Source: Dethiobacter alkaliphilus AHT 1 (GTDB taxonomy: Bacteria > Bacillota > Dethiobacteria > Dethiobacterales > Dethiobacteraceae). Taken from it: DNA of 64,000 bases. Position 1 is the stretch's first letter; the number at the start of each line of letters is the position of its first letter. Location: NCBI RefSeq assembly GCF_000174415.1, contig NZ_ACJM01000007.1, positions 1-64,000 of the forward strand, read 5' to 3'. The notes under the pieces are model-generated. The model ran no database searches, was not told the origin of the DNA, and was given only the letters and a program-made list of their open reading frames with translations. A program made the translations under genes and the position numbers. Below, one piece after another: positions 2,766-61,674 of this stretch.

Positions 2766-2878
2766 TAAAAATCCCTCCTACCGGAAATAAACTGCAAGTT
2801 GCCGTTAACTCCCTATATATATTCCTGTTTTAGCTAATCATTCCCTGCTATCTTGGCAACTTCTTCCTTAATATTCGC

Positions 2879-3886
2879 TTAAATTCCCTGTTGTGCTATA
2901 TAAAACGACAAGTCGGCCACTCGCTGCGAATAACCCCATTCATTATCGTACCAAGCCACAACGCGCAGCATATTGCCGCCCAGGGCCATGGTCAGCAGGC
3001 TGTCCACTACGCTGGAATAGGGTGTGCCTTTGTAATCCACGGAAACCAAGGGCTCTTCAGAGTAGCCAAGGATACCGCGTAGTTCATTGGCAGCGGCGGA
3101 TTTAAAGGCCTCGTTTGCTGTTTCTGCCGTTACTTCCTTGCCCAGGTCGGCCACAAAATCCACCATGGAGACGGTGGGTGTGGGTACACGAACGGCGTAG
3201 CCGTCCACCTTACCTTCCAGCTCGGGAATGATTTTGCCGAGAATTTTGGCGGCACCGGTGGTGGTGGGAATCATGGAGACCTGAGCTGCCCGGGCGCGGC
3301 GCAAATCGGGATGGGGCAGATCCAGGAGGTTCTGGTCGTTGGTATAGGCATGGGTGGTGTTCATCAGGCCTTTTTTCAAAGCAAAGTTTTCATGGAGTAC
3401 TTTAACTACGGGAGCCAGGGCATTGGTTGTACAGGATGCGTTGGAGAGGATATGGTGCTTGTCCGGTTCGTATTGGGTATGGTTAATTCCCATGACGATG
3501 ATTTTGTCTGCGTCGTTTACCGGGGTGGAGACAATTACTTTTTTGGCTCCGCCCTGCAGATGACGGGAAGCATCTTTGTGGGTACGGAATCTGCCGGTGG
3601 ATTCAATGACGATATCTACTCCCAATTCGGACCAGGGGAGATTTTCCGGCTGGGCTTCCGCCAGGATGCGGATATCCCGTCCGTTTACATTGAGGTTATC
3701 TCCTTTGACCGACACATCACCGGGGAACTTACCAAAGAGGGAGTCATATTTTAAGAGATGCGCCAGCGTGGCGTTATCCGTCAAATCGTTTATGGCGGCA
3801 ACGCGCAGGTTCTCGTTTTCCATCAGCGCGCGAAACGTATTTCGCCCGATACGGCCAAAACCGTTAATGCCGATATTTACAGTCAT
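2879..3886 (-). CDS. gap: Type I glyceraldehyde-3-phosphate dehydrogenase
   Basis: Oxidises glyceraldehyde 3-phosphate to 1,3-bisphosphoglycerate with NAD(P), in glycolysis or in reverse in gluconeogenesis. It is 335 aa, the normal length. The Rossmann dinucleotide loop INGFGRIGR is at the N-terminus, the catalytic Cys152 is in SNASCTTNALAP, and the general-base His179 is in THAYTND. The start at 3886 has AAAGGAGG 6 nt upstream. The gene lies 113 bp upstream of the phosphohexomutase gene on the same strand. Asn33-Asp34 in the position after beta-2 leaves the NAD versus NADP preference open. Confidence 0.96.
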   Translation of the reverse strand: MTVNIGINGFGRIGRNTFRALMENENLRVAAINDLTDNATLAHLLKYDSLFGKFPGDVSVKGDNLNVNGRDIRILAEAQPENLPWSELGVDIVIESTGRFRTHKDASRHLQGGAKKVIVSTPVNDADKIIVMGINHTQYEPDKHHILSNASCTTNALAPVVKVLHENFALKKGLMNTTHAYTNDQNLLDLPHPDLRRARAAQVSMIPTTTGAAKILGKIIPELEGKVDGYAVRVPTPTVSMVDFVADLGKEVTAETANEAFKSAAANELRGILGYSEEPLVSVDYKGTPYSSVVDSLLTMALGGNMLRVVAWYDNEWGYSQRVADLSFYIAQQGI

Positions 3887-18165: not shown

Positions 18166-18293
18166 ATATTCACGAGAAAGACTTTTTTTTCCTGCTTAAA
18201 ATTGTGAGAAAATTTGAAAAATTTCTAATTTGTAAAAACTGGAATTAATTTTCCTTTGCATATCACGACAAAATCCGGGCAACATACTAGCGT

Positions 18294-18597
18294 AGGGTTC
18301 GTAACGGCCGAGCCAAGACTTTTACGGGGCTTAACGGTTCCGTCCTAGTCGGCCAAAGGTTTTCATCGGGCCAAGCGGTTCGATGCTTAGCCGGCGGGAA
18401 GATCTTCAGTCGTCTGCAAGGATGGCTGGGGGTCGAGCGAAGATGGTCACATGGCGCATAATCTGTGTACGTGTGTCTGTCGGGCAAAGGTTATCATATG
18501 TTCTCCACACCGCGCTCTCACACCTTCGGGTGTACAGCCGGTATCAGGATGTATGTTAGCCGGCGCGCAGGTCGTTACGGGCTCTGCTTTTTTTTTG
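18294..18597 (+). ncRNA. Candidate structured non-coding RNA, about 300 nt, family unknown
   Basis: A GC-rich block in an AT-rich gap with no good reading frame. Its ends (18295-18309 and 18570-18584) pair over 15 consecutive base pairs, four of them G-U, so the match is not a simple DNA palindrome. Nine T residues follow at 18588-18596. Inside are a UUCG-capped hairpin (18520-18533), a helix 18402-18407/18439-18444 closing a branched region, and two similar modules with CGGTTC and TAGCCGG or TAGTCGG cores. A separate sigma-A promoter starts the next gene after it, so it appears to be an independent transcript. I find no signatures of tmRNA, RNase P, SRP or 6S RNA. Confidence 0.6.
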
Positions 18598-18621: not shown

Positions 18622-18650
18622 TTGACCCCCTATTGCATACATGGTATAAT
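18622..18650 (+). promoter_or_regulatory. Strong sigma-A promoter for the DUF3786 gene
   Basis: TTGACC, 17-nt spacer, TATAAT at 18645-18650, only 34 nt before the start codon and directly after the T-run of the RNA candidate. Confidence 0.8.
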
Positions 18651-18683: not shown

Positions 18684-19304
18684 TTGAACAAAAGCCCGTT
18701 TAACCTGGAAGAAACCTTACGCGTAGCCCGTGAGGAATTTTCCCGCAAACCGGTTTTGGAAATGGCCGCAAACAGCGGCTGCCTGTACGATTTGGACAAA
18801 GAACGCGTTACCGTACCCTTTTTAAACCAGAAGTACCTGGTTACATATCCCCACGGCCAAGTTACCTACGCCCACGATAACAGCGAAGCACCGATTATTA
18901 CCGCCATTTTGCTACTGCACTACCTGACAAACGCCACCGGCATAGAGCTGTCCAATAATTGGATTTCCTTTAAGGAACTGCAGGGCGGCAGCATCTATAT
19001 CGAACCGTTTCAGCACCGGGCCATCATACCCTTTGTTAAAAAGTTCGGCGGCTACCCCCAGGACTTTGCCAAAGCGGCAGAAAAACTAGGCGGCAAAAAA
19101 GCTGAGCACGGCGACGTCTCCTACATTATCCCCGCCCTGCCGAAGGTACCGCTTTTATACATTCTCTGGGAAGGCGATGAAGAGTTTCCGCCCAACGGTA
19201 CCATTCTTTTTGATAACTATGCCAACGCTTATCTGGCCACCGAAGACTTTGCTTTCCTGGCCGGCATGACGGTGGCAGCACTACTGGCCGCATTAAAAGA
19301 GTAA
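18684..19304 (+). CDS. DUF3786 family protein
   Basis: A 206-aa soluble protein resembling the DUF3786 family of anaerobes, often found near corrinoid or redox genes but of unproven function. Segments such as ILLLHYLTNATG and ISFKELQGGSIY are the conserved core as I know it; a Gly-rich stretch and aromatic residues near FDNYANAYLATEDF end the protein. No cysteine cluster or signal peptide is seen. The start is a TTG 7 nt after GGAGGGG. It has its own sigma-A promoter and a strong terminator, so it is a single-gene unit. Confidence 0.75.
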   Translation: MNKSPFNLEETLRVAREEFSRKPVLEMAANSGCLYDLDKERVTVPFLNQKYLVTYPHGQVTYAHDNSEAPIITAILLLHYLTNATGIELSNNWISFKELQGGSIYIEPFQHRAIIPFVKKFGGYPQDFAKAAEKLGGKKAEHGDVSYIIPALPKVPLLYILWEGDEEFPPNGTILFDNYANAYLATEDFAFLAGMTVAALLAALKE

Positions 19305-22462: not shown

Positions 22463-23482
22463 CTATCTTATTTCTGCATCAGGGACATCCTCACCGGTCA
22501 GTTGCCGGTAGGACTGCTGCAGCAGCTGTACCACAAAGATGGGGTTATGGACACCAAGGCTGCCATCATATGTTACCAGCACATGATTGTATGCAGCCTG
22601 GTACACTTCATTAGGCACATCAACATCTTCTTCACCGTCTCCACTGGTGAACTGAATGCGTCCTCCACCGGTGGTAAACGAACCGCCGTTCAACTCTTCA
22701 GAGATGGCAGCTTCCAACAGATCCAACAGGCCCTGCACTTCATCCTGGAAGCCCTTGGTCTCTCCGTCACCGTCATAATCGGCCCCTGCCGTCAGGTTGG
22801 AATCCTCACCAATTTCCTGATGACACTGACCGCACGCCGCCTGGGTGTCATCCACCCGGAAGGAATGGGAAGCAAAGTTCCCTTCGGTCTGCGTCATATG
22901 ACAGGCGTTACAGGTGTTATCCAGGTTTTCGTGAGCAGTGGTGCTGCCGTAGTCAAAACCTTCCGCCCGGATACCGCCGGTAGCAGTATACACACCGGCC
23001 TGACTGCTGGCGTGGGGAGCAGAACGCCTTTCATCTTCAATATCCGGCGCACGCCGCTCGTTATGGCAGTAAAAACACTGTGCTCCTCTGCCCGCTTCGA
23101 TGGCTGCATCTGCGGTGGGGATTTCCACCGTTCCCGCCTCCAACAAATCTGCACCTGCTCCGGTATGGCAGGCCCGGCAGTCAATGGATACGAAAAATTC
23201 CCGTTCCAGCTCTGCGGGGTCCGTCACCCCTTCGGCAAATGCGGCGCCGTCGTGACAGTTAATACACCCTTCTCTTGCTGCCGGACCAAGCTGAATATTG
23301 CTGTGATCCGAATCCGCCCACTGCTGGGTCAGAGTATTAATGTCAATCTGAGCCCGCTCGCCATCTTGCGGGGGCGGCTGCTGATCATCCGGATCCGCAT
23401 CATCCTGCGGGGGGCAACCGGACAAAACCGCCACAGCAAAAAGCGCTATCAGGCTAAAAATCAACCACTTCCTCCTTTGCAT
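22463..23482 (-). CDS. Pentaheme c-type cytochrome lipoprotein
   Basis: A 339-aa exported lipoprotein: basic start, hydrophobic helix and lipobox VLSGC (Cys23). Five CXXCH heme sites are at about 73 (CINCH), 102 (CRACH), 136 (CFYCH), 191 (CNACH) and 217 (CGQCH). A disordered Asp/Pro/Gln linker follows the lipidated Cys, and the last 110 residues have no heme. It should sit on the outer face of the membrane and move electrons between the quinone pool and an external acceptor or a reductase. No quinol-cytochrome partner is adjacent. The ATG at 23482 follows GGAAAGGAG. Confidence 0.92.
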   Translation of the reverse strand: MQRRKWLIFSLIALFAVAVLSGCPPQDDADPDDQQPPPQDGERAQIDINTLTQQWADSDHSNIQLGPAAREGCINCHDGAAFAEGVTDPAELEREFFVSIDCRACHTGAGADLLEAGTVEIPTADAAIEAGRGAQCFYCHNERRAPDIEDERRSAPHASSQAGVYTATGGIRAEGFDYGSTTAHENLDNTCNACHMTQTEGNFASHSFRVDDTQAACGQCHQEIGEDSNLTAGADYDGDGETKGFQDEVQGLLDLLEAAISEELNGGSFTTGGGRIQFTSGDGEEDVDVPNEVYQAAYNHVLVTYDGSLGVHNPIFVVQLLQQSYRQLTGEDVPDAEIR

Positions 23483-23568
23483 ACCAACAACTCCTTTCCA
23501 AATCATCAAATACTACCACATATCTTTACCAAACCATGATAAATTATGTAACTTTTTGTTACAAAAAA

Positions 23569-39997: not shown

Positions 39998-40083
39998 CCT
40001 TGATAAAGGCAAACCCGTCGAAAGACGGGGACGCAAAGCCACGGGCCTAAAGCATTGCTATGGCAGCCGGGTCGCCGGGGTAG
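39998..40083 (+). promoter_or_regulatory. c-di-GMP-I (GEMM) riboswitch
   Basis: The core GGCAAACC, a GAAA-capped stem, GACGCAAAGCCACGGGCCTAA and GGCAGCCGGGTCGCCGG are the hallmarks of the class I cyclic-di-GMP aptamer. An intrinsic terminator follows at once, so it likely switches transcription. The regulated gene is the CWB2/CAP surface protein. Whether the ligand turns expression on or off cannot be told without folding both states; a variant ligand (3',3'-cGAMP) is possible in this class. Confidence 0.93.
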
Positions 40084-48384: not shown

Positions 48385-48408
48385 TAACCGACCACAAGTG
48401 GTCGGTTA
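48385..48408 (-). terminator. Terminator of the 54-codon gene
   Basis: TAACCGACCAC/GTGGTCGGTTA stem with TTTTTATT on the minus strand. Confidence 0.82.
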
Positions 48409-48418
48409 CGCTACCGGC

Positions 48419-48583
48419 TCATTCCAGGCAAAGCGTCCAAATCAGCCCAAAAATCATTGCCCCCACAAAAATTATTGGGAAACTGGTGAGGGTTTTGCTG
48501 TAGAGAAGGCTACAAATGTTAAAACATACCGTATTTTCCTTTTGCTTCTTTTTGTTCTTTGTTTTCTTTAAAATTCCTGCCAT
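48419..48583 (-). CDS. 54-aa single-pass membrane protein
   Basis: A Lys-rich start (residues 4-16, KKTKNKKKQKEN) is followed by a hydrophobic C-terminal helix (about 34-53, SFPIIFVGAMIFGLIW). It stops 11 nt before a terminator, which supports it being a real gene. There is no good ribosome site in front of the ATG, so it is uncertain. No family recognised. Confidence 0.4.
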   Translation of the reverse strand: MAGILKKTKNKKKQKENTVCFNICSLLYSKTLTSFPIIFVGAMIFGLIWTLCLE

Positions 48584-61577: not shown

Positions 61578-61674
61578 CAGTCCTGGCAACCGGCTGTCAT
61601 CGCTACAATAGCATTAGACCCATGGCTTTGCGTACCCGCCTTTCGACGAGCTTGCCTTTAACAGTTCCCATTTC
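61578..61674 (-). promoter_or_regulatory. Second c-di-GMP-I (GEMM) riboswitch
   Basis: On the minus strand the conserved parts AAAGGCAAGC, a GAAA tetraloop (TCGAAAGG), GTACGCAAAGCCATGGGTCTA and GACAGCCGGTTGCCA match the class I aptamer, though less perfectly than the one at 39998. A terminator follows. Downstream on the same strand there is no clear full-length gene for 630 nt, so the target is unknown or lost. Confidence 0.88.

Follow-up and report, generated by a model that had tools for sequence, protein, structure and literature searches.

The window analysed here is a stretch of 64,000 nucleotides from Dethiobacter alkaliphilus AHT 1 (contig NZ_ACJM01000007.1). It contains a free-standing RNA gene of approximately 300 nt on the forward strand, at positions 18292-18596, which is single-copy in this genome and is followed 99 nt downstream by a DUF3786 gene (PF12654); all features are listed in Table 1. 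A preliminary description of the window had pointed out that the ends of this block pair over 15 bp with four G-U pairs, that it has its own terminator with a nine-T tail, and that the G-U pairs speak for selection at the level of RNA. These points are borne out by our analysis. All 15 pairs of the closing helix P1 (18295-18309 with 18570-18584) are formed, four of them G-U, and three additional pairs (18292-18294 with 18585-18587) extend the helix to 18 bp. The 18-bp helix runs directly into the nine T, so that P1 also serves as the stem of the terminator. Nearly all copies of the RNA form the 15 pairs of P1 in full, with compensatory changes. The four G-U pairs of the window copy all fall at positions that are wobbles in most copies; for two of these pairs, in columns 2 and 4 of our full-length alignment of 53 sequences (A1), this holds in 52/53 and 53/53 copies. 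The folding energy of the whole block is -143.7 kcal/mol (z = -7.2), with none of 100 shuffled sequences being as stable. The six-way architecture, the internal duplication and the sporulation-type promoter reported below go beyond what was described previously.

Table 1. Features of the RNA gene and of the surrounding window (positions refer to the 64,000-nucleotide window).
Feature	Position	Strand	Remarks
-35 element GCATA, sigma-F/G (forespore) type	18258-18262	+	conserved across the family with identical spacing
-10 element GGGCAACATA	18277-18286	+	5/6 of GGnnAnAnTA
P1 closing helix, 5' strand	18292-18309	+	15-bp unit 18295-18309 plus 3-bp extension
Linker 1, GAGCCAA	18310-18316	+	linker 4 pairs with positions 3-4, linker 2 with position 5; covariation
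Arm 1	18317-18350	+	15-bp unit with wobbles, tip loop; alignment, covariation
Linker 2, GGCCAAA	18351-18357	+	pairs with linker 3; covariation
Arm 2	18358-18392	+	alignment, covariation
Linker 3, GGCGGGAA	18393-18400	+	covariation
Arm 3	18401-18434	+	one tier in the window, two 15-bp tiers in most relatives
Linker 4, GAGCGAA	18435-18441	+	pairs with linker 1, pseudo-twofold axis; covariation
Arm 4	18442-18481	+	shortened in the window; alignment
Linker 5, GGGCAAA	18482-18488	+	pairs with linker 6; covariation
Arm 5	18489-18561	+	two tiers, UUCG tip in the window copy; alignment
Linker 6, GGCGCGCA	18562-18569	+	covariation
P1 closing helix, 3' strand	18570-18587	+	also terminator stem
Nine-T tract	18588-18596	+	end of intrinsic terminator
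3' half matched by the 5'-half model R1	18420-18573	+	45.6 bits, E = 3.5e-8
Sigma-70-like promoter of the DUF3786 gene	18622-18650		TTGACC-N17-TATAAT
DUF3786 gene (PF12654)	18684-19304	+	
Lipoprotein-like ORF	22463-23509	-	several CXXCH motifs
c-di-GMP-I-GGC riboswitch	39999-40080	+	Rfam
c-di-GMP-II riboswitch	48391-48473	-	Rfam
c-di-GMP-I riboswitch	61582-61666	-	Rfam

When 60 relatives were searched at the DNA level, 19 gave matches. Searching 84,980 species genomes with a pattern covering arm 2 and the two linkers that flank it (GCCNAAGGYY-N28-GCCRGMGGGMAGA) identified 53 loci, mainly in relatives of Dethiobacter, Peptococcaceae, Pelotomaculum, Desulfofundulus, Desulforamulus, Sporotomaculum, Desulfotruncus, Desulfallas, Moorella, Ammonifex and Desulfovirgula. 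One of the pattern loci (L042) is a chance match inside a coding gene. A covariance model built from the 5' half of the RNA only (R1) was positive in 114 of the 299 genomes sampled across the phylum (38%), with a best E-value of 1.5e-23; named positive genomes include Dethiobacter, Moorella, Pelotomaculum and Desulfotruncus. RNA-positive genomes usually carry one copy and sometimes two, the latter being the case in G132 (contig 9, L098; copies about 2.6 kb apart), G097 (contigs 4 and 12) and Desulfotruncus arcticus (L060 and L080). Two copies (L059 and L078) lie on MAG contigs labelled Deltaproteobacteria and Armatimonadetes, labels that are probably binning or labelling errors. Most relatives have a longer RNA (380-430 nt) than the window, and the minimal form (L119) is 283 nt long with nearly equal halves.

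The window copy, searched against Rfam 15 as the preliminary description had suggested, has no match at the gathering cut-offs or at E<=10; the sole hit at E<=10 is a chance match outside the RNA and on the opposite strand. Likewise, 42 homologous loci gave no Rfam match at the RNA at E<=1, and no description of a six-armed RNA of this kind was found in the subset of the open-access literature that was searched. The size and GC content would be compatible with a divergent representative of a known family (6S, RNase P, SRP, tmRNA, OLE, raiA or a riboswitch), but these negative searches and an architecture unlike any of these RNAs make such an assignment extremely improbable. In addition, the window contains no tmRNA or tRNA, and a separate, normal 6S RNA gene is present elsewhere in the genome. 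Judging from sequence comparison, we are almost certainly dealing with an undescribed family of non-coding RNA, with the secondary structure presented here. It is the RNA family and its architecture that are new; at a broader level, bacterial RNAs that are large, structured and of obscure function are already known. Two loci carrying the six-armed RNA also have matches to TwoAYGGAY RNA (RF01731), at 2924-3081 (+) in L033 and at 2781-2938 (-) in L099, the latter just below the cut-off.

RNAalifold applied to A1 predicted 136 pairs, 108 of them with compensatory changes. In our model of 142 pairs, 110 pairs changed on both sides. The model pairs 95.9% of the alignment cells, as compared with 80.1% in shuffled controls, which ignore shared ancestry, and 29-43% when partners were slid, a control that accounts for ancestry and tends to favour an alignment-derived structure. 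Its covariation score is 0.541 versus 0.231, and none of 500 shuffles scored as high by any measure. With such covariation and no Rfam match, the proposal of an unassigned structured RNA gene is sustained. The fold is a six-way junction formed by P1 and five arms; in most members, arms 3, 4 and 5 are extended by a second helix tier. The copy in the window is shortened, with one tier each in arms 3 and 4 and an imperfect helix in arm 1. The UUCG hairpin noticed previously is the tip of arm 5. A helix proposed at 18402-18407/18439-18444 fared less well: it is a possible alternative pairing without comparative support, the bases involved being part of arm 3 (18401-18415/18420-18434) and of linker 4 plus arm 4. 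In members of the Desulfotomaculia type such as L041 and L076, arm 5 has a 5' strand (GGTCATTACGGG) that is equal or nearly equal to the 3' strand of P1, which could allow the two helices to swap strands in these RNAs; the identity is not conserved in the window copy.

Each helix at the junction consists of approximately 15 bp with wobbles at the same distances from the junction, U.G at position 3, G.U at position 12 and U.G at position 14. The fractions of copies with wobbles at positions 3, 12 and 14 are 0.91, 1.00 and 0.98 in P1, 0.42, 1.00 and 0.85 in arm 1, 0.91, 0.96 and 0.87 in arm 2, and 0.70, 0.91 and 0.62 in arm 3. For arms 4 and 5, the fractions at positions 3 and 12 are 0.60 and 0.74, and 0.94 and 0.77, respectively, with mixed orientation at position 14. 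In the outer tiers 3b and 5b, this wobble pattern recurs when read from the opposite end (positions 2, 4 and 13), and in 4b it is shifted by one. Since wobbles occur at common positions across helices, the full-size molecule comprises nine near-equivalent helix units.

The helices are connected by six linkers, which we delineated across the family with a parser relying solely on complementarity within helices and on a loose linker score; those of the window copy were set by hand from the alignment, its arm 1 being imperfect. The 82 good parses kept gave linker lengths of 7, 7, 8, 7, 7 and 8 nt, and linkers 3 and 6 are numbered as 8-mers. Among 806 inter-linker position pairs, mutual information was highest for position 3 of linker 5 with position 5 of linker 6 and for position 3 of linker 2 with position 5 of linker 3. 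The latter pair is Watson-Crick in 69 of 71 distinct linker sets (CG 53, GC 16) and GU in the other 2, and the former is Watson-Crick in 59/71 (GC 46, UA 7, AU 4, CG 2). Position 4 of linker 1 and position 3 of linker 4 form Watson-Crick pairs in 66/71 sets (CG 63, UA 2, GC 1) and UG in 4 more. Position 5 of linker 1 matches position 2 of linker 2 in 58/71 sets, and position 5 of linker 4 matches position 2 of linker 5 in 56/71, again counting Watson-Crick pairs. All five linker pairs exceeded every one of 2000 shuffles. These counts indicate that the linkers pair 1:4, 2:3 and 5:6. Two pairs between linkers 1 and 6 predicted by RNAalifold (columns 18-459 and 19-458) were replaced by the covarying 1:4 and 5:6 pairings.

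The linkers and helices are arranged with a twofold pseudo-symmetry, in which linkers 1, 2 and 3 correspond to linkers 4, 5 and 6, and P1, arm 1 and arm 2 correspond to arms 3, 4 and 5, respectively. R1, although built from the 5' half, independently matches the 3' half of the same RNA (Table 1), and on this comparison the RNA is an internal duplication. A second R1 match inside the same RNA was obtained in about 46 of 68 loci (E<=0.1), with no second match outside the RNA in 232 kb searched. The "two similar submodules" mentioned in the preliminary description are thus real but were understated, as the halves 18295-18404 and 18420-18573 match one and the same covariance model.

Genes neighbouring the RNA vary from one clade to another, being conserved only inside a clade, and a Pfam search of 148 neighbours revealed no recurrent family beyond common ATPases. 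The DUF3786 gene of the window has its own sigma-70-like promoter. Variable neighbours and this separate promoter identify the RNA as a free-standing gene. The downstream gene is on the opposite strand in 71 of 111 cases, which argues against the RNA being a leader, and a cis-regulatory or riboswitch leader was rejected in the absence of a constant co-directional downstream gene. For DUF3786 specifically, proximity in the window and close downstream positions in several other Dethiobacteraceae would suit a cis-acting leader of this gene, but downstream genes are unrelated or convergent in other clades, the U-tract ends the RNA, and TTGACC-N17-TATAAT intervenes before DUF3786; synteny refutes such a leader, and we give it next to no credence. 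A mobile or repeated DNA element, such as a palindromic repeat or an inactive transposon end, might be suspected from the internal repetition and from the two copies in a few genomes. It is, however, hardly believable for an RNA that is single-copy in this genome and syntenic within clades, the covariation of which preserves G-U pairs. The plasmids and phages searched contained no copy, and the pattern search found none in viral contigs.

Upstream of the RNA, the window has -35 and -10 elements resembling those recognised in the forespore. The consensus of sigma-F and sigma-G is GYATA-N14/15-GGnnAnAnTA, which we cross-checked on SASP genes. When 111 unique upstream regions of the family were compared with GGnnAnAnTA, 54 matched at 6/6 and 45 at 5/6 (99/111 with at least 5/6), versus 0.8% and 14.3% of shuffled regions (15% with at least 5/6). 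The -10 element mostly lies 7-11 nt before P1, and an ATA-rich, GYATA-like -35 element precedes it by about 14 nt (spacing N14/15). A scan for TATAAT alone showed weak enrichment, the forespore consensus fitting far better. We then ran a PWM trained solely on the RNA promoters on the 150 nt upstream of gpr and of 22 genes for SASP, which are established forespore genes, taken from this genome and related ones. Of these 23 regions, 18 scored above 95% of the null, and many of the SASP matches, of the form GTATA-N14-nGAnATAATA, lie 20-33 nt before the start. The window promoter (18257-18286), itself a member of the training set, is the best PWM match on both strands of the 64 kb.

Nearly all RNA-positive genomes, 111 of 114, encode SpoIVA, a marker of endospore formation, as against 137 of 185 genomes without the RNA (p = 2e-8, a value that ignores phylogeny). 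Two of the three RNA-positive genomes with no SpoIVA hit are only 61% and 75% complete. Conversely, 137 of 248 SpoIVA-positive genomes have no detectable RNA, so the RNA is not required for sporulation in general. Promoter statistics, the PWM scores of SASP genes and the SpoIVA distribution together make forespore expression probable, and we consider it very likely that sigma-F or sigma-G directs transcription of the RNA in this compartment.

Non-coding RNAs of the forespore are known from Bacillus. CsfG of Bacillus subtilis is cited in PMC9147052 as controlled by sigma-F/G, and Bvs196/S357, which is about 294 nt long, has its own terminator and is forespore-specific and sigma-F/G controlled, affects spore resistance (PMC9147052). 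The six-armed RNA resembles CsfG in being a non-coding RNA of endospore formers with apparent forespore expression from a sigma-F/G promoter, and Bvs196 in size, in having its own terminator and in its probable sigma-F/G forespore control. The csfG gene is located between ylbG and ylbH, and by eye these regions of Bacillus genomes contain no six-armed pattern. Bvs196/S357 lies between hinT and ecsA, where Bacillus-type genomes gave no R1 match at E<=10 and show no linker and arm pattern. R1 also found no match at E<=1 in 60 Bacillaceae genomes, an empty result that is weak evidence. As compared at the Bacillus loci, CsfG and Bvs196 on the one hand and the six-armed RNA on the other appear to have the compartment in common, but not the molecule. 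A repeated CACCTCATTT motif was seen in the hinT-ecsA intergenic region of L185 and L186.

The presumably shared compartment lends some weight to a forespore regulatory RNA that base-pairs with mRNAs or sequesters a single regulator, functioning like CsfG or Bvs196 with unrelated sequence. This appears unlikely, as a conserved open seed would be expected and the unpaired tip loops vary in A1. Conservation resides in helices, wobbles and linkers instead of open seeds, and the module is repeated on a rigid hub; we therefore favour a multivalent, architectural role in the forespore over antisense action.

Several large structured RNAs of bacteria invite comparison. OLE RNA (RF01071), described in PMC12265935 and PMC9723947 as a large structured RNA of anaerobic and extremophilic Gram-positives that forms an RNP, is similarly large, structured and free-standing, but it is about 600 nt long and has another structure, and the six-armed RNA has no Rfam match to it. 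The raiA-motif RNA (ModT) is a structured RNA conserved in Bacillota that has been investigated in Clostridioides difficile (PMC11706538). In contrast to it, the six-armed RNA lacks any Rfam match. Its architecture also differs from that of the raiA motif. ROOL and GOLLD, which are longer and mostly linked to phages or mobile elements, are large ornate RNAs that build symmetric particles, their symmetry arising by oligomerisation. They set a precedent for modular RNA architecture, whereas the pseudo-symmetry of the six-armed RNA is inside one chain; it has no Rfam match to either.

The best overall explanation, which we hold to be probable, is a free-standing RNA gene that would be expressed in the forespore and yield a multivalent scaffold. 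The gene would be transcribed by sigma-F or sigma-G holoenzyme during endospore formation, with transcription ending at a terminator that P1 forms or that directly follows P1. The product, a six-way junction of up to nine near-identical 15-bp units, would act in trans as a rigid and pre-organised body presenting many equivalent helix modules. Several copies of one forespore protein, or further copies of the RNA, could serve as partners, and the scaffold may build or silence a particle in the spore core. Being suggested by analogy, the scaffold mechanism as such is put forward with reserve. Still more tentatively, the RNA might be a particle made in the forespore, with up to nine modules on a pseudo-twofold hub, which organises or shuts down the spore core either by binding a single spore protein in many copies or by self-assembly.

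The dense conservation of the six linkers, in a rigid multi-helix junction such as catalytic RNAs possess, could also be taken as the active or binding site of a ribozyme or ligand-binding RNA. We regard this as quite improbable, there being no expression platform and no constant downstream gene; besides, all six linkers are variations on a single motif and pair among themselves, and so read as architecture. We also abandoned a comparison with CsrB-type GGA sponges, since the GG in the linker-arm motif takes part in base pairing.

The RNA offers a precise target for structural biology, with a two-fold duplicated hub and a repeated wobble signature, and it raises the question of what a structured RNA does inside the spore. 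An unusually regular class with more than 100 covarying pairs, present in 38% of the sampled genomes of a phylum and outside Rfam 15, is a rarity. Forespore specificity, if real, might explain why it has been overlooked, since its members occur mostly in little-studied anaerobes and would be made only during sporulation.

Elsewhere in the window, three c-di-GMP riboswitches of different classes lie within 22 kb (Table 1), and the lipoprotein-like ORF with several CXXCH motifs probably encodes a multiheme cytochrome c.
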